Part shown: piece after piece, positions 14,175 to 33,877 of the stretch
How the letters are laid out: every line of letters begins with the position of its first letter
Position numbering within the stretch: position 1 is the first letter of the stretch
Assembly: GCA_021414115.1 (NCBI GenBank)
Contig: JAIOPD010000092.1
Location: 1 to 39,332, forward strand
Length of the DNA: 39,332 bases
From: Planctomycetia bacterium
GTDB lineage: Bacteria; Planctomycetota; Planctomycetia; Pirellulales; UBA1268
Direction: 5' to 3'
Program-made: the position numbers and the translations under genes
The notes under the pieces: generated by a model
Told to the model about the DNA's origin: nothing
Seen by the model: the letters and a program-made list of their open reading frames with translations, nothing else
The model's database searches: none

Positions 14175-14297
14175 ATCCATCTTGCCAGGCGGCCGGCTGT
14201 TCGGTCGTCGCGAGAGATGGGTCTCTTCGATCGACCGGCGTTCGGACGCGTTCGAGAAAAGCCTGCTCGATTCTTCGTGTTTCCTTTCCTTTTCCTT

Positions 14298-14302
14298 GGA
14301 GG
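14298..14302 (+). promoter_or_regulatory. Ribosome binding site fixing a GTG start
   Basis: GGAGG (within TTGGAGG) lies 5 nt before the GTG at 14308. It decides the start of the YTV gene, because the frame is open upstream to 14182 and that extension lacks both a ribosome site and a signal peptide. Confidence 0.7.
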
Positions 14303-14307
14303 TTTGC

Positions 14308-16134
14308 GTGATTCGCAAAGTTCTTTCTTGCCTCCTGCCGGCATTCGCCGTCGTCGCCCTGTGCACCAGCACGTGGGCCGCGGACTGCGGTGCCTGCGGT
14401 GGCGGTTGTGAGGGTGCCGTCGTCAGCGGTGGTGCCTGTGGTGATTGTGGCAATGCCGGCGCAGCCTGCGGCGGCACCAAGACGGTGTATCAGAAGCAGT
14501 ACGTGACCGAGATGAAGACGGTCACCTCGACTGAATACACCACCGAGACTCGCGAGCGGACCTACACGGTCAACAAGCGCGTCCCGCGGACCGAGACGAA
14601 GACCCGCACGGTCACCGTGCAGGTTCCCGAGACTCGGACCAAGACCGTGAACTACACGGTCAACAAGAACGTGACGGAGACCAAGACGGCCGAATACACC
14701 GTCCAGGTCCCCTACACCGAGTCGGTCGAGCAGACCTACACGGTGAACGTTCCTGTCTCCGAGGAGAAGACCGCCACCTACACGGTGATGGTGCCGAAGC
14801 AGGAAGAGAAGACCTCGACCTACACGGTTCAGGTTCCCTACACCGAGGAGGTCGAGCAGACCTACACGGTGATGACCTCCGTGCCCGAGGAGAAGACCTC
14901 GACCTACACGGTTCAGGTTCCCTACACCGAGTCGGTCGAGCAGACCTACACGGTGAACGTTCCTGTCTCCGAAGAGAAGACCGCCACCTACACGGTGATG
15001 GTGCCCTACACCGAGGAGAAGGTTTCGACCTACTCGGTCAGCGTTCCCTACACCGAGCAGGTCGAGCAGACCTATTCGGTGAACGTTCCCTACACCGAGG
15101 AGATGACCGGCAGCCGGACCGTGCAGAAGCGCGTCCCGGTTCAGTCGTCGAAGACGGTGCAGGTCCGCGGTGGCCACTGGGCGACGGAGCAGGTCGAGGT
15201 CGCCTCGGCCGGCACCGACGCCTGCGGCTGCCCGTGCCCCCCGAAGACGTGCTGCAAGCGTGTCTGGGTTCCGACGTGCGAGACGAAGGAAGTCCCGGTC
15301 ACGACCTACCAGTGCACGACCGAGGAAGTTCCCTACTCCTACACGGTCACCAAGTGCCGTCAGGAGCAGCGGAGCCGAATGGTGAACGTGACCAAGTGCC
15401 GCACCGAAGAGCGCACCCGCACCTACACGGTGTCGAAGTGCCGTCCCGAGGAGCGGACGCGGACCTACACGGTCACCAAGATGGTTCCCGAGACGAAGAC
15501 CCGCTCGGTCAACGTCACGAAGTACCGGTCGGAGGAGCGCACCCGGACCTACACGGTCACGAAGTGCGTTCCGGAGACGAAGACCCGCAAGGTCAGCGTC
15601 ACCAAGTATCGTCCGGAGGAGCGGACCCGCAGCTACACCGTCACGACCTGCGTGCCGGAAGAGCGGACCCGCACCTACACCGTCACGAAGATGGTGCCGG
15701 AGCAGAAGACCCGTACGGTCAACGTCACCAAGTACAAGGCCGAGACCAAGACTCGGGAGTACACGGTGACCAAGTGCGTGCCGGAGACGATGACCAAGGA
15801 AGTTTCCTACACGGTCATGGTCCCGTCGCAGAAGGAAGAGTCGTACACCGTGACGGTGTATGACTGCGTACCCGAGACGAAGACGCAGACCTACACGGTT
15901 CGCGTCCCGCATACGGTGACGAAGGAAGTGCCGGTGCAGAAGTGCGTGACGGTCGCCGTCGAGGTGGCCGTTGAGAACGCCTGCGGTGGCTGCGGTGACG
16001 CCGGCTCGGCCGGTGCCGCTGGTGCTTGCGGCAGCTGTGGCGAGGCTTCGGCCTGCGACAGCTGCGGCGATGCTTCGGCCGCCGCTTGCGACTCGTGCGG
16101 TGGCCGCCGTCGCGGCTGCCGTCGCTGCAAGTAA
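14308..16134 (+). CDS. Secreted YTV-repeat protein with Cys-rich ends (planctomycete cell-envelope type)
   Basis: A 608-residue exported protein starting at GTG 14308. The signal is IRKVLSCLLPAFAVVALC...AWAAD-like. A Cys/Gly-rich N-terminus (CGACGGGCEG) is followed by 20 copies of the tripeptide YTV plus two YSV. The first ten sit in acidic units such as YTVQVPYTESVEQ; the last ten sit in basic units such as RTRTYTVTKCVPE. A Cys cluster (DACGCPCPPKTCCKRVWVP) lies between the halves, and the C-terminus is again Cys-rich (CGGCGDAG, DSCGDAS). This matches the Pfam YTV family described from Rhodopirellula, where such proteins are thought to belong to the wall. Disulphide or metal crosslinking through the Cys clusters is inference. 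A strong ribosome site and terminator suggest high expression. The minus strand is also open over 690 codons, by codon bias only. Confidence 0.88.
   Translation: MIRKVLSCLLPAFAVVALCTSTWAADCGACGGGCEGAVVSGGACGDCGNAGAACGGTKTVYQKQYVTEMKTVTSTEYTTETRERTYTVNKRVPRTETKTRTVTVQVPETRTKTVNYTVNKNVTETKTAEYTVQVPYTESVEQTYTVNVPVSEEKTATYTVMVPKQEEKTSTYTVQVPYTEEVEQTYTVMTSVPEEKTSTYTVQVPYTESVEQTYTVNVPVSEEKTATYTVMVPYTEEKVSTYSVSVPYTEQVEQTYSVNVPYTEEMTGSRTVQKRVPVQSSKTVQVRGGHWATEQVEVASAGTDACGCPCPPKTCCKRVWVPTCETKEVPVTTYQCTTEEVPYSYTVTKCRQEQRSRMVNVTKCRTEERTRTYTVSKCRPEERTRTYTVTKMVPETKTRSVNVTKYRSEERTRTYTVTKCVPETKTRKVSVTKYRPEERTRSYTVTTCVPEERTRTYTVTKMVPEQKTRTVNVTKYKAETKTREYTVTKCVPETMTKEVSYTVMVPSQKEESYTVTVYDCVPETKTQTYTVRVPHTVTKEVPVQKCVTVAVEVAVENACGGCGDAGSAGAAGACGSCGEASACDSCGDASAAACDSCGGRRRGCRRCK
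14710..14795 (+). repeat. 86-bp direct repeat inside the YTV gene, copy A
   Basis: This copy recurs 210 bp later (exactly 70 codons) with a single mismatch (GAGGAG versus GAAGAG). It encodes PYTESVEQTYTVNVPVSEEK and the following YTV unit. Near-identity at third codon positions points to recent duplication or gene conversion. Confidence 0.85.
14920..15005 (+). repeat. 86-bp direct repeat inside the YTV gene, copy B
   Basis: Second copy of the block at 14710-14795, in the same reading frame, differing at one synonymous position. Confidence 0.85.
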
Positions 16135-22786: not shown

Positions 22787-24214
22787 GTGGCACAGGCACC
22801 AGAAGGCATCGTCGCGGCTGCGAATGCGACTGGCGTCGACGTGCTGATCGCCGAGGACAGCCGGATCCAGGCGAAGATGCTCCAGAAGCGGCTCCTGGAC
22901 GCCGGCCATACGGTCCGCTGGGGAGAAAACGGGGCGCTCGCACTGGCGCTGGCCCGTGAGCGGCGGCCCGACATCATCGTCTCCGACATCGAGATGCCGG
23001 AGATGACGGGCTACGAGTTCTGCAAGGCGGTGAAAACCGACCCGGCGCTGCGGACGGTGCCCTTCATTCTGCTGTCCACGCTCTCCGATCCGATCGACAT
23101 CATCCGGGGCCTGGATGCGGGGGCCGACAACTACGTCACCAAGCCCTATGAGCCTGACTACCTGCTGGGCCGCATGGAGTCACTGCTCGCGACGCCGCTC
23201 GCGGCGGCTGATGACTCGGGCGACGCGATGCTCGAGGTCACGCTCGCGGGCCAGAAGTTTCGAGTGCGGGCCGGCCGCCAGCAGGTGCTCAACCTCCTCG
23301 TCTCGACCTTCGAGAATGCCGTCTCGAAAAACCAGGAGCTCGTGGTCGCCAACCAGGAGCTCTCGGTGGCCCGCGACGACCTGCAGAAGTCGAACGAGGA
23401 GTTGACCACGCTCAACGCCGAGATCTCGCGGATCAACGCCCACATGGTCCGCGACCTCAAGGCCGCCGCCAAGGTCCAGCGGTCGCTTCTTCCAGCCGAT
23501 GACGTCGAGATCCCGGCCACGAGCATCGCCTGGAAATACGTCCCCTGCCAGAGCCTCGCCGGCGACTTTCTCAACGTCTTCCCGCTCGACGACGAGCATG
23601 CGGGGCTGTTCGTGGTGGATGTCAGCGGTCACGGCGTGCCCTCCTCGCTGATGGCCGTCACCGTGGGCCGGTTCCTCACGCCCAAGGTCTCCGACTCGTC
23701 GCTGCTCGTGCGGCAGGCAACGGATGGTCGCGTGAGCGTCGTGCCTCCGGCTGAGGTGGCCACGCAGCTCAACAAGATCTTTCAGGCCGACGAATTCTCC
23801 GGCCTCTACTTCACGCTCCTCTACGGAGTGCTCCACCTGCCCACCGGCCGGTTCGACTACTGCTCCGGCGGCCATCCGGCCCTGGTGCGGGTGCCGGCCT
23901 CCGGGGGTGACGTCGAGTTTCACACCACCGAGAGCTTCCCGATCGCCTTCGTGCCCGACGTCGAGTATTCGCAGAGTTCGCTCCAGCTCGCCCCGGGAGA
24001 CCGGCTGTTCCTCTATTCCGACGGCGTGCCGGAGGCGATGGACAAGGACCGCAACCCCTACGGCGACGACGCCATGGCCGCGTGCATCGCGGCCTCGCGT
24101 GCCGCCTCCATCGACGTGGGCGTATCGACCCTGCTCGAGGCCGTCGAAAACTGGTGCGTGCCCAACGGCCCCCTCGATGACGTCTCCATCCTCGGCGTCG
24201 AGTGGCGGCCGTAG
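22787..24214 (+). CDS. Response regulator with PP2C-type (SpoIIE/RsbU) serine phosphatase output
   Basis: A 475-residue cytoplasmic protein. The receiver domain (~16-135) is complete: acidic pocket IAEDS, phospho-acceptor Asp67 in IIVSDIEMPEM, Lys119 in YVTKP. A helical coiled coil (~165-235; NQELVVANQELSVARDDLQ) leads to KVQRSLLP and the phosphatase domain (~235-475) with metal-binding GDFLNVF, FVVDVSGHGVPSSLMA and LFLYSDGVPEAMD. Phosphorylation of the receiver should control dephosphorylation of a STAS protein. The GTG at 22787 is chosen because it follows the STAS stop at once and precedes the receiver by a short tail; the frame is open upstream within the STAS gene. The convergent chemosensory operon supplies a CheA kinase with no other obvious receiver, so CheA may be its donor (inference). 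Confidence 0.92.
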   Translation: MAQAPEGIVAAANATGVDVLIAEDSRIQAKMLQKRLLDAGHTVRWGENGALALALARERRPDIIVSDIEMPEMTGYEFCKAVKTDPALRTVPFILLSTLSDPIDIIRGLDAGADNYVTKPYEPDYLLGRMESLLATPLAAADDSGDAMLEVTLAGQKFRVRAGRQQVLNLLVSTFENAVSKNQELVVANQELSVARDDLQKSNEELTTLNAEISRINAHMVRDLKAAAKVQRSLLPADDVEIPATSIAWKYVPCQSLAGDFLNVFPLDDEHAGLFVVDVSGHGVPSSLMAVTVGRFLTPKVSDSSLLVRQATDGRVSVVPPAEVATQLNKIFQADEFSGLYFTLLYGVLHLPTGRFDYCSGGHPALVRVPASGGDVEFHTTESFPIAFVPDVEYSQSSLQLAPGDRLFLYSDGVPEAMDKDRNPYGDDAMAACIAASRAASIDVGVSTLLEAVENWCVPNGPLDDVSILGVEWRP

Positions 24215-24236
24215 GTCTGGTCGACCCCAATGGCTC

Positions 24237-24368
24237 GGGGCTGCCAATGCCCCGTCGCCGGACGTTCGCCTCAGCCCTCCAGGCTTCGGCTCTCTGCATG
24301 TCCGCTGCACTTCGCCCTCCAGGCTTCGCTTGCTCCCATAGCCCGGCTCTCGGGGCACTGGCAGCCCC
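24237..24368 (-). repeat. Inverted-repeat element, copy 1 (reverse orientation)
   Basis: A 132-bp element bounded by GGGGCTGCCAATGCCCC (24237-24253) and GGGGCACTGGCAGCCCC (24352-24368), complementary at 16 of 17 positions. Inside, GCCGGACGTTCGC (24257-24269) is the complement of a block in the other two copies, so this copy is inverted. It also contains GCCCTCCAGGCTTCG twice (24274 and 24314). It begins 22 bp after the stop of the phosphatase gene. Confidence 0.8.
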
Positions 24369-24390
24369 TCGCTGCGTTCACGGTCAGGGA

Positions 24391-24532
24391 GCCGGGGGCT
24401 GCCCGTGCCCCGCGAGCCGGCGTAGGTGGCCAGCGCAGCCCGGAGGGCGAAAGCGCAGACAACTCCGAGTGAGCGGAGGGCAGGGATGCCCGCAGCGAAC
24501 GTCCGGCTCTCGGAGCACGGGCAGCCCCCGGC
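24391..24532 (+). repeat. Inverted-repeat element, copy 2 (forward orientation)
   Basis: A 142-bp element whose ends (24391-24412 and 24511-24532) are complementary at 21 of 22 positions, with pairing extending inward through AGCCGG/CCGGCT. The core contains GCGCAGCCCGGAGGGCGAA, TCCGAGTGAG and GCAGCGAACGTCCGGC (24492-24507), shared with the copy at 33.3 kb. It ends 6 bp from the cheR stop, so copies 1 and 2 fill the convergent junction. Small open frames here are not convincing genes. Confidence 0.8.
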
Positions 24533-24538
24533 GGCGCG

Positions 24539-25366
24539 TCAGCGGCGCGTCTTCGGCGTGTAGTGGCTGCAGCCGCTGGAGGTCACCCGATTCCAGCCGT
24601 CGTCGATGCCGATCATCGTCTCGGCGCCGCCGAGAAAGAGCGCGCCGTCCTGGCGGAGCGTGCGCCGGACCCGTTGCACCAGGGCGGCGCGGGTCGGGAC
24701 GTCGAAATAGAGCATCACGTTTCGCAGGAAGACGACGTCGCAGAGGGGCATCATCGGCCAGGTGCCGTTGAGGTTTATGCTGCGAAACTCGATCAGCTGG
24801 CGGCACTCCTGCACGACGCTCCACTTTCCCTGGAGCGGCCGGAAATACTTCTTGAGCAGCGGACCGGCCAGGCCGCGATTCGTCTCGAGTTCGCTGTAGA
24901 GGCCCTCCCGGGCGCGGGCGAGCACCGGCTCGGAGAAATCGGTCGCGATGATCCTGATCCGCCATGTCTTCAGGAGGTCACGAAAGTGCTCGTTGAACAT
25001 CATCGCCATGCTGAGCGGCTCCTGGCCGGTCGAGCAGGCGGCCGACCAGAGCGTGAGCTGCCGCTCGGTCGACCGCTTCGTGACAAGGTCGGCAATGATG
25101 CCCCGGAGGGCCTCGAACGGGGCCTTGTCGCGAAAGAACGAGGTCTCGTGCGTCATCATTGCGCAGAGCACGTCCTTCTCGAGCGACGGATCCCCCCCCT
25201 GCCGGACGCGGTCGATGAGCGTCTCGAGGCTCGGGATCCTCCGCTGCCTGACGATCGGCATCAGGCGGGCCACGACGAGGTAGTGCTTGGATTCGTCGAT
25301 GCATACGCCTGTCCGTTTTCGCAGCAGGCTGCACAGGTAGTCGAACTGCGGTGGAGCGACCTTCAT
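24539..25366 (-). CDS. cheR: CheR chemoreceptor methyltransferase
   Basis: A 275-residue enzyme that methylates receptor glutamates using S-adenosylmethionine. The N-terminal helical domain (FDYLCSLLRKRTGVCIDESKHYLV) and the MTHETSFFRD segment are typical. The SAM-binding core has LWSAACSTGQEPLSMAM, where the usual GEEP appears as GQEP, then IIATDFSEPVLARAREGLY and CDVVFLRNVMLYFD. The ATG at 25366 is chosen because the CheR fold starts just after it; the frame upstream overlaps cheB and reads as Arg/Cys-rich noise. It lies 22 nt after the cheB stop, last in the chemosensory operon. Confidence 0.93.
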   Translation of the reverse strand: MKVAPPQFDYLCSLLRKRTGVCIDESKHYLVVARLMPIVRQRRIPSLETLIDRVRQGGDPSLEKDVLCAMMTHETSFFRDKAPFEALRGIIADLVTKRSTERQLTLWSAACSTGQEPLSMAMMFNEHFRDLLKTWRIRIIATDFSEPVLARAREGLYSELETNRGLAGPLLKKYFRPLQGKWSVVQECRQLIEFRSINLNGTWPMMPLCDVVFLRNVMLYFDVPTRAALVQRVRRTLRQDGALFLGGAETMIGIDDGWNRVTSSGCSHYTPKTRR

Positions 25367-25388
25367 GGGGCGGCGGTTCGTCGCGGCG

Positions 25389-26858
25389 TCAGCCGCCACG
25401 CCTCTTGAGCCGCAGGCCGATCTCGACACCCACCTGCGAGAGCGGCAGCACGGCGTCGGCCAGACCGGCCCGCACGACCTCCCCCGGCATGCCCCAGACC
25501 ACACTCGAAAACTCATCCTGGGCGATCACACCCCCACCGGCGGCGACGATCGCCCGCGAGCCGGCGAGGCCGTCACGGCCCATGCCCGTGAGCACCACGC
25601 CGAGCGTGCCGCCTCCCCAGAGCCGGACCGCCGAGCGGAAGAGCACGTCGGCCGATGGTCGGCAGGAGTTTTCCGGCGGATCATCGGTGAGCCGGATGCG
25701 GGGCTGGACCGCGTCACCCACGAGCTCGACGTGCCGGCCGCCGGGGGCCAAGAGCACCTCGCCCGGCTTCGCGCTCTCCCCCTCGGTCGCCTCGCGAACG
25801 GGCAGTCCGCTCACCTTCGCGAGCCGTTCCGCCAGGGCTGCGGTGAAAAAAGCAGGCATGTGCTGGACGATGATGATCGGCACCCGCGCCTCGGGCACGA
25901 AGGCCGGCAGCACCTCGGCGAGCGCCGTCGGCCCACCGGTCGAGACCGCCACCACGACACCCTCGATCCTCGAGTTCCGAGCGGGCCGCGACGACCGCAG
26001 AACCGTCGAACCGCCGCCATTCGGTCCGGCCGCAGCACCCCGGCCCGACATCGAGGCGGTCCCTCGCGACACGAGCGACTTGATCCGGCCGATGACGTCG
26101 CTGCGGATGCGGGCGGCCACGTCGTCCGCGTTCAAGCCGGCAGGCTTGGCAACGTAGTCGTTGGCCCCCGCGAGAAGAGCATCGACCGTGGCCTTCGCTC
26201 CCCGCTCCGTCAGGCTCGAAAACATGATGACGGGAAGTTTTCCGAATCGCTTGCGGATTTCGCGAAGCGCCGTGAGGCCGTCCATGACCGGCATTTCCAC
26301 ATCGAGCAAGACAAGATCGGGCGGCGCCGCGGCGATCGCATCGAGGCAGGTCGCACCATTGACGGCCGTGCCCACGATCTTGAGATCAGGATCGGCGCCG
26401 AGCGTCGCCGTGAGGATGCCGCGAATGGTCGCCGAGTCGTCGCAGATCAATACGCCGATCGGACCGCGACCACCCACCATTGCCAGCTCCCGTGGGACAA
26501 GACCGAGATCGACGAGCTTGCGGGCGAGTGCCGCCGCCGTGAAGGGCTTGGCGAGGTAGTCGTTGATACCCGCTGCCCGGGCCAGGGCGATCCGCTCCTG
26601 ATCGTGCTCGGTCGCAATCATCAGGATCGGCAGGCCTCGATAGGCCGGATCGGCCCTGAGCCGCCGCACGAGTTCCACGCCGTCCATCACGGGCATGTGC
26701 CAGTTGACGGTCACCAGATCAGGCCGGCCGCCAGAGGCGAGCGCCGCGAGGGCCTCGACGCCGTTGCCGGCCTCGCTGCAGGAGAAATTCAACTCCTGCA
26801 GCGCGCGCGCGACGATGCTCCGGCTCGGCTTGGAATCGTCGACGACGAGCGCACGCAC
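25389..26858 (-). CDS. cheB: CheB methylesterase/deamidase with two receiver domains, the first lacking its phospho-acceptor Asp
   Basis: A 489-residue protein with architecture receiver-receiver-CheB. Receiver 1 (1-118) keeps Asp7/Asp8, Thr83 and Lys104, but the acceptor position is Asn52 in LVTVNWHMPVMDG. Receiver 2 (~134-255) is complete (Asp140/141, Asp186 in LVLLDVEMPVMDG, Lys238). A Gly/Ser/Arg-rich linker leads to the esterase domain (~298-489) with catalytic Ser306 in VSTGGP, His333 in VQHMP and Asp429 in GMGRDG. The usual CheB has one receiver and ~350 residues, so this is a CheY-CheB fusion. It should demethylate the adjacent MCP when receiver 2 is phosphorylated by CheA. Receiver 1 may act as a docking or dimerisation module. 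Confidence 0.94.
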   Translation of the reverse strand: MRALVVDDSKPSRSIVARALQELNFSCSEAGNGVEALAALASGGRPDLVTVNWHMPVMDGVELVRRLRADPAYRGLPILMIATEHDQERIALARAAGINDYLAKPFTAAALARKLVDLGLVPRELAMVGGRGPIGVLICDDSATIRGILTATLGADPDLKIVGTAVNGATCLDAIAAAPPDLVLLDVEMPVMDGLTALREIRKRFGKLPVIMFSSLTERGAKATVDALLAGANDYVAKPAGLNADDVAARIRSDVIGRIKSLVSRGTASMSGRGAAAGPNGGGSTVLRSSRPARNSRIEGVVVAVSTGGPTALAEVLPAFVPEARVPIIIVQHMPAFFTAALAERLAKVSGLPVREATEGESAKPGEVLLAPGGRHVELVGDAVQPRIRLTDDPPENSCRPSADVLFRSAVRLWGGGTLGVVLTGMGRDGLAGSRAIVAAGGGVIAQDEFSSVVWGMPGEVVRAGLADAVLPLSQVGVEIGLRLKRRGG

Positions 26859-26913
26859 CGCTGGGATCCTCCCTGACCCGTCCGGCCGTCCGGCAGCCGG
26901 TCACGAACCGCCG

Positions 26914-29061
26914 CTATTTACGCCTGTATTCTTCCACGAGCTGCTGCAGGGCCTGTGCCATGCGGGAGAGTTCCTGCGACGAGACCTGCGTGTTGGAAGC
27001 CCCCTCGGCCGTGCTCTGCGCGGCCTGGGCCACCTGCACGATATTCTCCGCGATCTCCGACGACCCCGTGGTGGCCTCGGCAATATTGCGGCTGATCTCG
27101 CTCGTCGTCACCGATTGTTCCTCGACCGCCGCGGCGATCTTCGTCTGCAGGCTGTCGATCTCCTCGATCACCTTGCCGATTTCCGCGATCTCGTCAACGG
27201 CTCGCCGCGTGTCACCCTGCATCGACTCGATCCGGCCGCCGATGTCCTCGGTGGCCTTCGCGGTGTCGCGGGCAAGCTCCTTCACCTCGCTGGCGACGAC
27301 GGCGAACCCCTTGCCGGCCTCGCCGGCACGGGCAGCCTCGATCGTGGCATTCAGCGCGAGGAGGTTGGTCTGCTCCGCGATCGACGTGATCACCTTGATG
27401 ACGGCCCCGATCTCGTTGCTCGATCGGCCGAGGGCCGCCATGGTCGAGGATGTCGCCGACGCCATCTCCACCGCGCGTCGGGCGGTGGTGGCGGCATCCT
27501 GGGCGTTCCTGGCGATCTCGTGGATGCTGGCGACGAGGTTGTCGATCGAGCCCGATACGGTCCGGGCGTTGCCACTCACCTGCTCCGCGGCAGCGGAGAC
27601 CAGATTGGCCTGGGCCGTCGTCTGCTCGGCGGCCGCGCTCATCTGCTGGCTGACGCTCGTGAGCTCCTCCGAGGAGCTGGCCAGGGCGTGCGTGTTGTCC
27701 ACGATACCGCCGACCAGCGCCGCCTGACGCCGCGTCTCGCGGGTCAGCCGGCGGGCGATCAGCGTCGAGACGCCAAGCACCGCGGCGCTCGTCAATCCAA
27801 ACACCGTGATCCCGAGACGCAGCAGCCGGTTGACCGGCTCGAATACCTCGGCCGCATCGACCTCGGAAATGAGCGCCCAGCGGACATCGCCCCGGCCGCC
27901 CGAGGGATCACGATGCACGACGATCGGCCGCCATGACACCAGCGATCGGACACTCCGATAGTCGACCGCCTCGGCCGTGCCAGTCTTACCTTCATCAACC
28001 GCCGCCCGGACGGCAGGCGTATCGACCTTGAAGTCCGGATTGATGATCGTGGTTTTCGTGCCGAGCTCCTCGGCAAACCGCGAGTTGCTGCGAAACAGCC
28101 GATCGCCGCCCACCGCATAGGTCTCGCCTGTTCTCCCCATGCCGGTCGTCTCGCCGATGATCGCGTCGGCCTTCCCGATCGGAATCTGGAAGGCGACGAC
28201 ACCCACGACCTGACGGCCTTCGAGGATCGGCGCGGCGATAAAGCTGGCCGGCTCGTTGCACGACGGCAGATATCGGGCGAACTCGCCGAAAGCGACGGCG
28301 TCACGGCGGCCGCTCGCCGCCGCCTGCTGGAAGGCCACGCCCAGGCTCGTCGTCACCAGGGGCCCCTCCCGCAGCGATGCCCCCAGATCGGTCTCCTTCG
28401 CCACGCTGTAGACGATCTTGCCGGACACGGCGTCGATGAGAAACACGTCGGCCACGCCGTACCTTTCGCACAAGCTGCGAAAGAACGGATGAAACGTGCC
28501 GTGGGCCCTCGTGTAGGCCGACGCATCGGCAGCAGCATCCAGCAGGCCTTTCGCGCCGATGGCGTTGTCGTTTCGGCGGATGTAGAGGTATTGCAGATAG
28601 GCCGAATCATCATCGAGCGAGTCGGCGAGTGGTTCGAGGTTGACCGAATCGTCGGCCCGCCGGCGATACTCCGCCGCGAACTCGCCCGTGTAGAAGGTCG
28701 CGAGTTCCCGTCGCGCCGTGGCCAGCGCCTTTTCGTCGACCTTGTCGTCACTGCGGATGGTGGCCAGGCCGTCCCTGAATTTCTCGAGCGACTCGCGCAC
28801 GACCCGTCCCTCGGCGAGCACGCCGAGCTGCTGCCGCAGCGCGTGGAAATACCGCTCCACCGACTTGCCGGTGACGGCGTTGACGGTCTCGAGTTGCTTG
28901 AAAGCCTGCTCCCGCAGGGCGGCCGACGAACTGCGATAGCTGATCATGCCCATAAAGGCCATGGGAATCAGCGACACGCCGAGCAGGGCGAGGAGGAGCG
29001 GATTGGTGAGGAACGCACGCCAGCCGCCGGCGGCGATACCGGAGGGATCACGATCTGCCAT
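26914..29061 (-). CDS. Methyl-accepting chemotaxis protein
   Basis: A 715-residue receptor. Membrane segments lie at ~21-41 and ~413-438, with a ~370-residue periplasmic domain between (double-Cache-like: [52 protein letters not shown]). The cytoplasmic domain contains the conserved hairpin tip ([20 protein letters not shown], then [14 protein letters not shown], ~565-600). No recognisable HAMP domain is present; helices follow directly after TM2 with only a short Arg-rich link. The C-terminus EEYRRK lacks a CheR-tethering pentapeptide. The ATG at 29061 overlaps the cheW end by 14 bp, so translation is probably coupled. The ligand is unknown. Confidence 0.93.
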
Positions 29062-29533
29062 GGGAAATCGCCTGCCTTTCGAGGGTCTGCGGCCGCGGCC
29101 GCATGAATGACTGAATCATGCGCTGGGGATCGAGAAGATGCACCAGCCGGTCCGGTGCCGCGAACACGCCCACCAAAGCCTCGCCCGGACCCTCGGCCGA
29201 CGAGGTCGTCGGCTGCTCGATCCGATCCTGCGGAAGTTCCAGGACATCGAGCATCTCGTCGATCACGAGACCGTACCAGTCGTCCTGCAGCGCGATCACC
29301 AGATGCGTCGGTTGCTCGGGCGTCTTCCGCGACACCCCGAGATGGATCGCCGGGTCGATCACGGGCACGATTCGGCCGCGGAGGTGGAGCAGGCCGAGGA
29401 TGGCGTCGGGGGCAAGCGGCACCCGCGTGAGGTGGCCACCCCGCAGCACCTCGACCACGCCAGCGGTGGGCACCGCAAAGCAGGCGTCGCCGATGCGAAA
29501 GGTGCAGAAATCGTGCATGGGGGGTTCGTTCAT
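29048..29533 (-). CDS. cheW: CheW adaptor protein
   Basis: A 161-residue single CheW domain ([56 protein letters not shown]) that links the receptor to CheA in signalling arrays. The start codon shares one base with the cheA stop (TGATG), and the end overlaps the MCP start by 14 bp, so the three genes form one tightly coupled unit. A C-terminal extension ([18 protein letters not shown]) exceeds the domain by about 20 residues and mostly reflects the overlap region. Confidence 0.93.
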
Positions 29534-31725
29534 CAGGCGTCACCCACCGCCGTGTCGAGATCGATGACTTCAGTGGCGACGCCGCCGAGCGCGAGGATGC
29601 CAGCCACGCCCGGCGATGTCGTCGGCTGGAGCCGTGACTCGGCGGCCAAGACGTCGATGATCGAACCGACGGCAAGACCGAATCCGCCCTGTGATCCACC
29701 GACGACCACCACGTTCACCGTCGGCGGTGATGTGGTCGACACACACCCCAGAAGTTCGTCGGCATCCTCGAGCGTCGTAAATCCATCGCCGCGGCGGACG
29801 ACGCGACGGTGACCGACAACCTCAACCTCGTCGCGATGAAACGTCTCGAGCCGCACCACGTCGGCCAGCGGCACGGCCACCCTGCGACCGCCGAGAGTAC
29901 CGCAGACGAGATACCGATCCGTAATCTCGACGATGGGAATCGGGGCGGCGTCTGGCTCGCGGTCGACCGGAGGCAGTCTCAGAATCCTCAGCAGGCCGCG
30001 GAGGTCGAGGATCAAGACGACGCCACCGTCACCGAGCACGGTGGCGCCGGTGTAGAGCCCCAGGGCGGTCAGCAGTCCGCCGATCGGCTTGACCACGATC
30101 GTGGAGAGGCTCGCAGCGTCGAGCAGTTCGCGGCACCGCAGATGCCCCGCGCTCGACTGCATCCCATCGACCACCAGGCCAAACTCCCGGTCGTCCACCC
30201 GCACGAGCACGACCGTCCCATCCTCGCGACAGGCCGTGGTCTCCCGGATGCCCAGAAACTGGTCGAGAAACACGATCGGCACGAGCCGCCCGCGGACCCG
30301 CATCACGGGCGCCTCGGCGAGCCCTTCGATCCGCGGCCCGGAGCGGTCCCGCTTGAGCGGCACCAACTCCCCCACCGCCGACTGCGGGATCGCAAACCGC
30401 TCGCTCCCACAGCGGACGACGAGCGCCGGCATGATCGCAAGCGTGAGCGGCACGTGGACGCTGATGACGGTGCCAATGCCCGCGGTGCTCTGGATGTCGA
30501 CGGTGCCACCGATCGCCTCGATGTTGGTCCGCACCACATCCATGCCCACGCCGCGGCCCGACACGCTGGTGACCGTCGCCGCCGTGGAAAAGCCTGGCTC
30601 GAAGATGAACTGCAGCACTTGATCGGGGGGCATGGCGGCGGCCTCGGCGGCCGAGACGAGCCCCCGTGCCACCGCCTTTTCCCGCACCTTCTCGAAGGCG
30701 ATGCCGCCGCCGTCGTCGGCCACCTCGATCGTCACCCGGCCGCTCTCGTTGAAGGCCCGCAGCGAGAGTCGGCCCACGCGGGGCTTGCCGCTAGCGACGC
30801 GGACGTCCGGCGGCTCGATGCCGTGGTCGACGGAGTTGCGAATCAGATGCGTGAGCGGGTCGCGGATGCTCTCGATCAGCGTGCGGTCGAGTTCGGTGTC
30901 GGCGCCGTCGATGACCAGCTCAACTTCCTTGCCGCAGGAGGCGGCGACGTCGCGGACGGTCCTCGGGAAGCGGTTGAAGACGTGCTCGACCGGCTGCATC
31001 CGCGTCTTGACCGCGGTCTCCTGCAGCGCGTTGGTCACGGTGTTGATCCGTTGCGCCACCGCCTGCACCGCAGGATCGTCGCTGTCGAGGCTCCGCAGCT
31101 GGTTGCGGGCCAGCACGAGTTCGCCGACCAGATCGAGGATCGATGCGAGAAGATCGACGTCGACTCGGACCGTGGTCTCGGCCGTAGCCACGGGAGCAGC
31201 CGCAGTCGGCTGGACGGGTGGGATTGGCTGAGCCGGCGGAGGCGTGGCCGCTGGTACAGCCGCAGCCGGCGCTGCCGCCCGTGGCTCGGGAACGGCCGGG
31301 GACTCCTGCGTCACTGGTGACGGCGAGGTGGAGATCGGGGTCTGCTCGGCCGCGGCGGCGAGCGCCCGGGACAGATCCCGATAATCCTGATCGCCCTCGT
31401 TGCCCGTGGTCTCGATCGCCTGCAGGATCGACCGCACCGCATCGACCATCGAGTAGAGCGAGCCCGTGACACGGTCATCGAGCGTCAGCTTGCCGTCCCG
31501 TAAGCGGCCCAGAAGATGCTCGCCGCTGTGGGCCAGGGCACCGAGCTTCGAGAATCCGAAGAAGCCGCTGTTGCCCTTGATCGTGTGCACCGTTCGAAAG
31601 ATGCTCGCAACCCGCTGGGCATCATCGGGCTGCTTCTCCAGCGCAATGAGGTCCTGGTCGAGTTGGTCGAGGTTTTCGCTCGACTCGACCAAAAACTCCT
31701 CGATAAACTCGCGGTTGTCAGTCAT
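29533..31725 (-). CDS. cheA: CheA chemosensory histidine kinase with tandem CheW-like domains
   Basis: A 730-residue kinase. The Hpt domain (1-~110) has phospho-acceptor His47 in VHTIKGNSGFFGF. No P2 response-regulator-docking domain is evident; a ~60-residue Pro/Ala linker (~125-185) takes its place. Dimerisation helices (~186-255) precede the ATP-binding domain with LIRNSVDHGIE (N box), EVADDGGGI (337-341) and SGRGVGMD. Two CheW-like domains follow (~430-580 and ~597-725), whereas classical CheA has one. The ATG at 31725 matches the family start; the frame is open to 31911 without similarity, and no clear ribosome site is seen. It is first in the operon cheA-cheW-mcp-cheB-cheR. The missing P2 domain suggests docking to its regulators differs from E. 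coli. Confidence 0.94.
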   Translation of the reverse strand: MTDNREFIEEFLVESSENLDQLDQDLIALEKQPDDAQRVASIFRTVHTIKGNSGFFGFSKLGALAHSGEHLLGRLRDGKLTLDDRVTGSLYSMVDAVRSILQAIETTGNEGDQDYRDLSRALAAAAEQTPISTSPSPVTQESPAVPEPRAAAPAAAVPAATPPPAQPIPPVQPTAAAPVATAETTVRVDVDLLASILDLVGELVLARNQLRSLDSDDPAVQAVAQRINTVTNALQETAVKTRMQPVEHVFNRFPRTVRDVAASCGKEVELVIDGADTELDRTLIESIRDPLTHLIRNSVDHGIEPPDVRVASGKPRVGRLSLRAFNESGRVTIEVADDGGGIAFEKVREKAVARGLVSAAEAAAMPPDQVLQFIFEPGFSTAATVTSVSGRGVGMDVVRTNIEAIGGTVDIQSTAGIGTVISVHVPLTLAIMPALVVRCGSERFAIPQSAVGELVPLKRDRSGPRIEGLAEAPVMRVRGRLVPIVFLDQFLGIRETTACREDGTVVLVRVDDREFGLVVDGMQSSAGHLRCRELLDAASLSTIVVKPIGGLLTALGLYTGATVLGDGGVVLILDLRGLLRILRLPPVDREPDAAPIPIVEITDRYLVCGTLGGRRVAVPLADVVRLETFHRDEVEVVGHRRVVRRGDGFTTLEDADELLGCVSTTSPPTVNVVVVGGSQGGFGLAVGSIIDVLAAESRLQPTTSPGVAGILALGGVATEVIDLDTAVGDA

Positions 31726-31870
31726 CCGTGTCAGAGAGGGGACCGGCGGAAGAGAAGACGCTCGTTCCGGGGCGTGGCGACGGGGCAGTCTGCGGCGACT
31801 TTGCCGGCGCAGTTCCCGATCCCCAAGCATACACCTCAAACCGAACCGCCCGGGCCGTCGATCTGGTGAA

Positions 31871-33142
31871 TCAGCCGTTATTCCCGGCAGAGACAGCACC
31901 ACCGGCCCCATCCCCTCTGGACTTCATCGACTGGTCCATCAGCGGCCAGAGGTCGTCGATACGATCTTTGAAAAAGTCACCGATCAGGATGTCGGTGATG
32001 AGCGGCTTCGACTCGCCATGTTGCTTGACGAGCTGGCCGAAGTTGAGGCCATCGTAGAAGCCGCACACGAGCCTGCGCATCCGATCCATGCCGGCGACGT
32101 AGTCGGGCCCCCACGCACCCAGTCGCTCCGCCGACGTGTCGCCCTGTTCGAGTCCGGCGGCGATTGCGTCGGCTGCAAGCGCGCCGCTCTTGAGCGCCAG
32201 CAGAATCCCGGACGAATAGAGTGGGTCGAGGAAGCCGAAGGCATCGCCCACCAGCACCCAGCCGTCGCCGGCCACCTTCGTGGAACTGTAGGAGTATTCC
32301 TTGGCCGCACGAAACGGCGCGATCCGCTCGGCCGCGGCGATTCGCGGCTGTACGCCAGGGCAGCGGGCCACCTCTTCGCCGTAGATCATCTCGAGGTCTT
32401 TCGAGTCGCGATTCTTGAAGAGGTGATCGTAGGGGGCAACCACGCCGACGCTGACGACGTCGTCGGCGAGCGGGATGTACCAAAACCAGCCGATCTTGCC
32501 CGCCGTCTGCATCACGAGCGTGGCACCCGCATCGCGGCCGCTCTCCCGCGCGGCCCCCTTCCAGTAGGTCCAGATCGCAGCCTTCTTCAAGACCGGATCC
32601 CACTGCCGCAGCCCCAGCCGATCGAGGATCAAGCCGCTCTGGCCCGCGGCATCGACCACGACCTGGCAGCGAATCACCTGCTCGACACCCGCGTCATCGA
32701 CCGCCCGCACGCCCACCGCCCGCTCTCCCTCGAAGAGCACTTCGAGCACCCGCGTCCCTTCCTGCACATCGACTCCGTGCCGGCGGGCGTTGTCGAGCAT
32801 CAGGTGGTCAAACTCCTGCCGCGACACCTGCCACGTCCGCGAACTTTCATGCTCCTTGTAATCGGCGAAGTAAAACGGCTCCGACACGCGGCCCTGTTCG
32901 GAGACGAACTGCACGCTGTGCTTCTCGACGAAGGGGCCGCCCCGCAGCGTCGGCAGGATACCGAGCCGGCCCAGCACCCAGAACGTCTCCGGGATCAGCG
33001 ATTCCCCGACGTGGTAACGGGGGAACCGCTCTCGTTCGAGCAGTCGCACCGTCCGGCCTTGCTGCACCAAGAGCGTGGCCGTGGTGGCCCCCGCCGGCCC
33101 GCCGCCAATGACCACCACTTCGGGACTTGCTGCCGCGATCAT
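31871..33142 (-). CDS. FAD-dependent oxidoreductase resembling flavin-dependent halogenases
   Basis: A 423-residue flavoprotein. The Rossmann FAD motif VVVIGGGPAGATTA is at the N-terminus, followed by FPRYHVGESLIPE, typical of the halogenase / geranylgeranyl-reductase superfamily. Two features favour the halogenase side: WFWYIP at 219-224, which fits the WxWxIP signature, and Lys74 in FVEKHSVQF, where halogenases carry their catalytic lysine. The late FAD motif is VGDAFGFLDPLYSSGI (~298-313). Such enzymes need a flavin reductase and a substrate, often carrier-bound; no biosynthetic genes are adjacent, so the product is unknown. A plain monooxygenase or reductase remains possible. Confidence 0.82.
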   Translation of the reverse strand: MIAAASPEVVVIGGGPAGATTATLLVQQGRTVRLLERERFPRYHVGESLIPETFWVLGRLGILPTLRGGPFVEKHSVQFVSEQGRVSEPFYFADYKEHESSRTWQVSRQEFDHLMLDNARRHGVDVQEGTRVLEVLFEGERAVGVRAVDDAGVEQVIRCQVVVDAAGQSGLILDRLGLRQWDPVLKKAAIWTYWKGAARESGRDAGATLVMQTAGKIGWFWYIPLADDVVSVGVVAPYDHLFKNRDSKDLEMIYGEEVARCPGVQPRIAAAERIAPFRAAKEYSYSSTKVAGDGWVLVGDAFGFLDPLYSSGILLALKSGALAADAIAAGLEQGDTSAERLGAWGPDYVAGMDRMRRLVCGFYDGLNFGQLVKQHGESKPLITDILIGDFFKDRIDDLWPLMDQSMKSRGDGAGGAVSAGNNG

Positions 33143-33481
33143 GACGTTGATTCCAGCTCCACGATCAAGCCACTACCGTCAACGATAACCCTAGCCCTGA
33201 CACCCTCGACCGGCAACATCGCCTCCGCGGCAGGCTTTTCCGCAAGACCGAGCGACCGGGAGGGGCCTGGGGCGTCCCAAGTCACGAACTCAGCGAGGGG
33301 CTGCCCGTGCCCCGGAGCCGGCGTATGACGCCAAGCGCAGCCCGGAAGGCGAAGCGCCGGCGGCATCCGAGTGAGTGAAGCCCAGGTTGGGCGCAGCGAA
33401 CGTCCGGCGACGGGGCACGGGCAGCCCCCAAGCCACCCAGGACGTGGAACCCCAGCCTCAGCAGCCCCGGCAACGTCTCGG
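33143..33481. other. Intergenic region holding a repeat element
   Basis: This 339-bp gap lies between the start of the flavoenzyme gene and the end of the small HTH-like gene, both on the minus strand. The repeat element fills its middle. The part next to 33142 should contain the flavoenzyme promoter, but I could not pick a convincing one, and no gene is visible. Confidence 0.6.
33297..33429 (+). repeat. Inverted-repeat element, copy 3
   Basis: A 133-bp element with ends GGGGCTGCCCGTGCCCCG (from 33297) and CGGGGCACGGGCAGCCCC (to 33428), fully complementary. The core shares AGCCGGCGTA, GCGCAGCCCGGA, TCCGAGTGAG and GCAGCGAACGTCCGGC with the copy at 24391-24532, in the same order and spacing. 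Confidence 0.8.
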
Positions 33482-33877
33482 TCAGCCCTCGAACTGCCGG
33501 AGCGCCTCGAGCGCGGCGATCGCGCGATCGAGCCCGCCCAGACGACCGACGGCCTTCTTCGCCGCCACCAGGTCCTCGATCGAGATCTTCGCCTTCGACT
33601 TCACACTCTTGCTGGCCGCCGCCGCTACCGCGACCAGGTCGCCGCTCTTGCGACGCTTCCGCGGCCGGAAGCCCATCCGCTTGAGCACCATGCTCACCTG
33701 CGGCGACGAGACCGTGATGCCCTGCTTCTTGAGGATCGCGATGATCGCCACGGGCCGGGGCTTCTCCCCCTTGGCCTTCATCGACGAGGCGATCTTGCGG
33801 ATCTCCGCCGACTTGTTGATCTCTTTGGCCTTGTTGGTCTCTTTGGAGAGCTTCTTTTCGGCGGCTTTTTCGACCAT
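33482..33877 (-). CDS. Small Lys-rich protein with HTH-like segment
   Basis: A 131-residue basic protein. The ATG at 33877 is preferred to longer in-frame openings because the conserved-looking part begins there. The Lys/Glu-rich N-terminus leads to NKSAEIRKIASSMK, then PVAIIAILKKQGITVSSPQVSMVLKRMGF, whose helix-turn-helix pattern (…ITVSSPQVSMVLK…) resembles small planctomycete DNA-binding-like proteins I recall. A basic patch (RPRKRRKSG) and a helical C-terminus (KAVGRLGGLDRAIAALEALRQF) follow. Nucleic-acid binding, as a regulator or nucleoid protein, is plausible but unproven. It diverges from the membrane protein at 33996. Confidence 0.7.
   Translation of the reverse strand: MVEKAAEKKLSKETNKAKEINKSAEIRKIASSMKAKGEKPRPVAIIAILKKQGITVSSPQVSMVLKRMGFRPRKRRKSGDLVAVAAAASKSVKSKAKISIEDLVAAKKAVGRLGGLDRAIAALEALRQFEG

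Follow-up and report, generated by a model that had tools for sequence, protein, structure and literature searches.

The window, by which we mean the whole 39,332-nucleotide stretch of planctomycete DNA analysed here, carries three core copies of a palindromic element of about 132 bp that has no coding capacity. The first copy (24237-24368, minus strand; covariance-model score 124 bits, E 1.4e-20) is of a variant subtype, GGGCTATGGGAGC...GGACATGCAGAGAGCCGA, with 22 bp between its outer end and a SpoIIE/response-regulator stop codon. A spacer (24369-24393) separates it from the second copy (24394-24529, plus strand; 117.3 bits), whose outer end and the stop codon of a convergent CheR gene are about 10 bp apart; the two copies, arranged 5' to 5', make up a head-to-head doublet (24237-24529) between these genes. 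On the plus strand, the arms of the terminal stem of the second copy occupy 24394-24420 (5' arm) and 24503-24529 (3' arm) and enclose two internal hairpins, the first (GCGCAGCCCGGAGGGCGAAAGCGC, 24433-24456) having a GGA loop and a purine internal loop and the second (GTGAGCGGAGGGCAGGGATGCCCGCAGCGAAC, 24469-24500) a GGA loop. The third copy (33297-33428, plus strand; 126.5 bits) is flanked by two minus-strand genes, at 31871-33142 and 33482-33877, and is preceded at 33255-33296 on the plus strand by what reads by eye as a degenerate remnant of an upstream composite module, to be compared with the GGGGCTTCCCAAGGCACGAACTCAGCGA that precedes other copies. Elsewhere in the window, coding repeats of 42 bp (14 residues) follow one another in a long array over 14543-15926, inside a predicted gene (14182-16134).

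The original prediction, made from this DNA without database searches, had described three copies of an inverted-repeat element with shared internal blocks, and all of these are present in the window where it placed them. The sites of the copies were right, but the limits drawn for the second one, 24391-24532, include a few extra palindromic bases outside the core. A compensatory base change had also been pointed out, and one pair has indeed gone from C:G to A:T in the copy at 24237; a neighbouring pair, however, has changed on one side only (G:C to G:T as read on the strand that folds), and the three copies by themselves therefore offer thin evidence for covariation. Each window copy outfolds all 200 of its dinucleotide shuffles (z -6.6, -7.5 and -7.4), and no transposase adjoins the element, as had been noted. 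This first observation is real but far too narrow.

Copy number and taxonomic spread

The window comes from a genome of 4.35 Mb in 144 contigs that is 95% complete. A search of this genome for the 17-bp arm GGGGCTGCCCGTGCCCC, with two or fewer mismatches allowed, gives 304 occurrences, as compared to 6 of a reversed-pattern control, and for this reason a chance origin of the repeat is excluded. When 57 diverse copies were made into a covariance model, it found at least 146 matches in the same genome (150 candidates were scored), including near-identical copies at unrelated loci. That 9 of the 129 copies kept for the orientation test begin within 300 bp of a contig start suggests that further copies are hidden by assembly breaks. 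The supposition that the copies would not be unique to the window is thus borne out by a search of this genome and its relatives, in which the repeat proved to be of high copy number and to occur in all 22 of the 22 genomes of the genus. Across the taxonomic family that carries it, mostly lake-derived planctomycetes, there are approximately 45 to 150 copies per genome; the model matches number 65 in genome G018 and 77 in G123 at E 1e-6, and 89 in G011 and 45 in G119 at E 1e-10. When 146 genomes of the order were scanned, 21 had matches, all of them in this one taxonomic family and amounting to most of its sampled members, and no genome of any other family in that scan had a match. Two members of the same family, G022 and G023, are genomes in which the element was not detected, and a third, G024, has few copies if any.

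The matching records of the GTDB collection are planctomycete assemblies, many of which are lake-derived by name. The repeat is carried by records titled Candidatus Kuenenia stuttgartiensis (L123, L127, L134, L139 and others) and by one titled Phycisphaerales (L186); either these titles are wrong or the bins are mixed, probably. The viral contigs and the phage and plasmid records that were searched gave no match. With the Rfam covariance models the window is without a match, the hits within 24200-24560 being at chance level and short of the curated threshold, and no earlier description of the family was found among open-licence papers. The remark that no named family fits therefore holds, and the family is apparently unnamed. 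Presence or absence of the element differs between species. An orthologous counterpart of the intergenic region that holds the window doublet also has a copy in one other species (L172), while some of the orthologous regions in other species are short and without a copy, although their exact boundaries could not be drawn.

Genomic setting, doublets and composites

The copies sit at gene 3' ends. Among those with a called gene on both sides, 31 lie between convergent genes, 27 between codirectional genes and 1 between divergent genes (one further codirectional copy was flagged as overlapping a called gene), the genes having been called by a simple home-made codon-score finder and not an established one; the gaps of 80 bp or more in the source genome predict approximately 12, 30 and 17, respectively (p 2e-10). 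At the codirectional sites the element is in the sense direction in 12 cases and antisense in 15. The flanks consist of GCGA or GTGA before the element and GA after it, or else of complementary extensions of the stem. No target-site duplication could be defined, the orthologous empty sites being too diverged for exact junctions, and the GA conserved at either side may belong to the element itself. These flanks bear on the idea that the repeat is a classical MITE of an insertion sequence that has the same terminal inverted repeats and a DDE transposase. The element does have terminal inverted repeats, is small and intergenic, and lacks coding capacity, and several insertion sequence families that contact the sliding clamp are, like this repeat (see below), biased in orientation with respect to replication (PMC5371812). 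However, a MITE of this kind is improbable in our judgement, given the lack of a detected target-site duplication and flanks that are conserved or extend the stem. Nor did an autonomous insertion sequence with such ends come to notice incidentally.

Many cores in the source genome sit inside a composite repeat of approximately 340 bp, which is made up, in order, of a hairpin pair ended by GGAAGCCC/GGGCTTCC, a linker that closes with CCCGCGA, then the core, and finally some 50 bp of tail starting with GACCCACCACTCGGG. The tail frequently finishes close to where a convergent gene stops, and tails of the form ...GGATGCGCTCTAG (L006, L023 and L026, for example) often end on the TAG stop codon itself, as though it had a part in where copies insert or are retained. 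The hairpin pairs ended by GGAAGCCC and GGGCTTCC constitute a second repeat, situated up to about 150 bp upstream of the core (L011, L017, L023, L026 and others), whose end octamers occur 100 times in approximately 380 kb of stretches from the source genome. Other arrangements recur as well. Full copies in L053, L006, L028 and L042 are followed, in direct repeat and up to three times, by a 43-bp segment (GAGCCC..GAACGTCCGGCTC..GGGGCACGGGCAGCCCC) representing a 3' half of the element, and a variant of this segment is found in L010, L023, L027 and L057. In several species, copies are also accompanied by recurring hairpin repeats of other kinds (ACAGGTTGAAAACCTGTGCTAC; GACAGGCTGAAGCCTGTC), as in the flanks of L145, L157, L166, L192, L267 and L270. 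Head-to-head doublets about 25-110 bp apart were seen on several contigs of G123 and in L123, L127, L138, L143, L162, L183 and L188; they form much of the G123 population and are common in other members of the family.

The fold and the strand that forms it

The element is a structured nucleic acid whose fold is kept by selection. In the alignment of 57 copies, 94.7% of the cells at the 36 pairs of the RNAalifold consensus are paired, as compared to an average of 79.0% in shuffles; 30 of the 36 pairs have changed on both sides (shuffles average 18.9), and there are 277 double-change cells versus 83 in shuffles. None of 500 shuffles reaches the observed value on any of five measures, and when the partner is slid by 1-3 columns, pairing falls to 28-41%. 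Double-sided changes are seen in all 13 outer pairs of the terminal stem. The proposal that pairing is under selection, which had been based on a single base pair, is upheld by these 57 copies, in which arm changes preserve pairing far more often than they destroy it, and the covariance model and covariation test it had called for give double-sided changes in excess of both the shuffled and the slid controls.

The anatomy of the fold comprises a terminal stem of approximately 20-26 bp, a middle stem that bears a hairpin with a GGA loop, and a second GGA-loop hairpin. The two internal hairpins are near-identical in design, each having a GC, a GNA/GNA internal loop, 4-5 variable pairs and the GGA loop. 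Among 262 copies, GGA occurs in 96% of the first loops and 87% of the second; conservation is 80-99% for the G and A in the internal loops and 98-99% for a CGT that is internal to the element, at the 3' arm's inner foot. The interior is conserved and asymmetric.

A palindrome that acts only as double-stranded DNA is expected to show G.T wobbles and A.C mismatches equally. On the same pairs of this element there are 304 of the former versus 58 of the latter, although these are cell counts from related copies and are not independent; taken pair by pair, 25 pairs lean to G.T versus 8 to A.C (sign test p 0.0046). From this excess, selection appears to act on the plus strand in single-stranded form, as either RNA or single-stranded DNA. 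The plus strand is also the more stable fold under RNA and DNA parameters alike; with the latter its mean is -51.3 kcal/mol versus -47.9 kcal/mol for the minus strand, and it is the more stable of the two in 132 of 150 copies.

One copy of csrA per genome is usual, and four csrA-family matches above the cut-off were obtained in each of six genomes (G000, G011, G018, G022, G023 and G123). The copy number of this gene enters into an account in which the element is first of all a structured RNA at gene 3' ends, in the role, for example, of paired GGA hairpins for CsrA-type proteins or of an mRNA stabiliser or terminator, and its dispersal is secondary. The strand preference of the wobbles, the GGA of the loops, the four csrA-family matches per tested genome and the location at gene 3' ends all speak for such an RNA, as does the commonest loop, CAGGATG, which resembles the CsrA consensus RUACARGGAUGU (PMC7652899). 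Yet csrA is equally present in G022 and G023, the two relatives without a detected copy of the element; most of the loops have 3 nt, in contrast to the 6 that CsrA favours, and only 18% of the first loops and 11% of the second contain the 8-mer CANGGANG. The near balance of sense and antisense among codirectional copies is also at odds with an RNA function of this type, which in addition leaves the replication orientation described below unexplained, and we hold the account to be unlikely. The CsrB/RsmZ-type RNAs share with the element the possession of several hairpins with GGA in the loop; the element differs from them in being a dispersed repeat with shorter loops and very stable stems. Binding of a CsrA-type protein would fit the fold but is unsupported by the distribution of csrA genes; a CsrA sponge is possible.

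Orientation, mode of spread and relation to known repeats

The orientation of the element follows the direction of DNA replication in three species. Within contigs, copies tend to lie on the same strand, with 63 same-strand pairs of 76 in the source genome (permutation mean 38, p 2e-4), 58 of 88 in G018 (mean 44, p 0.008) and 47 of 61 in G011 (mean 30, p 2e-4); in G119, which belongs to another genus, the corresponding figure of 12 of 20 (mean 9.8, p 0.18) is not significant, and G123, where head-to-head pairs dominate, was kept outside the test. Replication GC skew was estimated from third codon positions with the transcription part removed, on selected stretches. Plus copies are found at negative skew and minus copies at positive skew (45/5 vs 14/43, Fisher p 2.5e-12), the link being seen at approximately 1e-6 in both genomes of this set separately, and further stretches, nearly all of them from G011, give 8/4 vs 3/19 (p 0.005), these p-values being optimistic because it was stretches with copies that were selected and adjacent copies have a skew estimate in common. 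Overall, orientation agrees with replication skew in 115 of 141 copies from the three species, and it is the agreement across species that gives the result its weight. Gene strand is uncorrelated with replication skew (r -0.06). In both G018 and G011 the G-rich strand is the one that carries dnaA and the ribosomal L2 gene; we have therefore taken that strand as leading, and on that basis the plus strand of the element has the polarity of the lagging daughter, with its complement on the lagging template. A supposed flip of orientation at dnaA on contig 3 of G018 was dropped; the skew is uniform there, and a single copy departs from it.

Such an orientation could also arise by selection after insertion, and an account that relies on selection only, which fits the direction of the bias, is the main rival to the one that we prefer. 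It supposes that insertion is blind to orientation and that the more stably folding strand is deleted or selected against when it is on the lagging-strand template. The greater stability of the plus strand under DNA parameters, given above, is what this requires, and the minus strand, which would be the tolerated one, is indeed found on the lagging template. We nonetheless lean against it, tentatively: the difference in stability between strands is small beside the terminal stem that they share, and near-identical, presumably young copies are also biased, as judged by eye and with no separate statistic.

Among known families, REPINs are doublets that form hairpins and undergo compensatory changes (PMC3116915), and the present element resembles the REPIN/REP (GTAG) families as an intergenic long-hairpin doublet of high copy number, with compensatory changes, tandem clusters and singlet remnants. 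A true REPIN, moved by a RAYT (TnpA-REP) transposase, is quite unlikely in spite of the two inverted REP-like arms, the copy number, the compensatory changes and the tandem 3'-half remnants. The element has no GTAG/GTGG foot, being flanked instead by GCGA, GTGA or complementary extensions; it is larger, at 132 bp; and, in contrast to the spacers of REPINs, its interior shows both conservation and asymmetry and includes two GGA hairpins. Neither a Y1_Tnp match nor a RAYT gene was found in the source genome at its 95% completeness. One or two Y1_Tnp genes are present in 9 of the 22 genus genomes (L109-L119); none of these loci contains the element or is flanked by it, and no RAYT or Y1 gene was seen beside element copies. 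Strict membership among the REPINs was rejected for lack of an associated RAYT gene and of the GTAG/GTGG foot, and the RAYT reading is already weakened by this patchy distribution. The original suggestion of a MITE-like passenger or REP-like element caught the general type; the high copy number, asymmetric interior, head-to-head pairing, composite structure and replication orientation escaped it.

The 127-bp enterobacterial ERIC comes close in size, in being an imperfect palindrome over its whole length, in its intergenic location and in its tens to hundreds of copies; it belongs to another phylum, and we claim a functional and structural likeness only, with no relation in sequence. We know of no report of replication-linked orientation or of this branched fold for ERIC, which is described as a MITE-like repeat. 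Its copies number in the tens to hundreds per that description (PMC10969869). Within the Planctomycetes, CGTC-tagged REPs occur without a dedicated transposase (PMC3733652), and class 3 Y1 proteins are flanked by hairpins with a CnGA foot (PMC6006769). These, known from Planctomycetes and Acidobacteria, are likewise high-copy palindromes of the phylum, and CGTC is conserved in the present element too. However, the CGTC REPs are hairpins of 20-40 bp with an outer tag, whereas here CGTC is internal, at the inner foot of the 3' arm, and membership in that group was rejected on grounds of size and tag position; in contrast to the class 3 TnpA-Y1 hairpins, the outer foot here is GCGA/GTGA and there is no Y1 gene beside the copies.

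The reading that we prefer, and to which we give about an even chance, is that of a non-autonomous, high-copy repeat of REPIN/ERIC type that has spread in trans at replication forks with a fixed strand at each insertion. An enzyme supplied in trans would mobilise the palindromic element of about 132 bp, insertion would take place at the replication fork, and each new copy would enter with a fixed strand relative to the fork. Replication-linked orientation has been documented for IS200/IS605 and other transposons that contact the sliding clamp (PMC5371812). The element shares with IS200/IS605 members such as IS608 and ISDra2 an orientation that follows the direction of replication; it differs in having no TnpA and no TnpB, and its folded strand is on the opposite template. 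Under the IS608 rule it is the lagging template that would carry the folded strand, which is the reverse of the arrangement observed here, and an IS608-like enzyme would therefore have to act on the complement of the folded strand. A SINE-like variant, in which a structured RNA would be copied into DNA, inserted in trans at the fork in fixed orientation and kept at gene 3' ends, its GGA hairpins being bound as RNA, strikes us as very improbable.

Small palindromic repeats are common in bacteria, and the mechanism by which they spread is established for a minority of them. The family described here is best read as a new REPIN/ERIC-like family of non-autonomous mobile elements, probably inserted at the replication fork. 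It brings together, in one abundant family, two strand-specific signatures, a single-strand fold under selection and an orientation that follows replication in three species, which opens the way to a direct test of whether repeats with no obvious RAYT spread at the replication fork. With dozens of genomes and approximately 45-150 copies in each, the lineage offers the comparative material for doing so.
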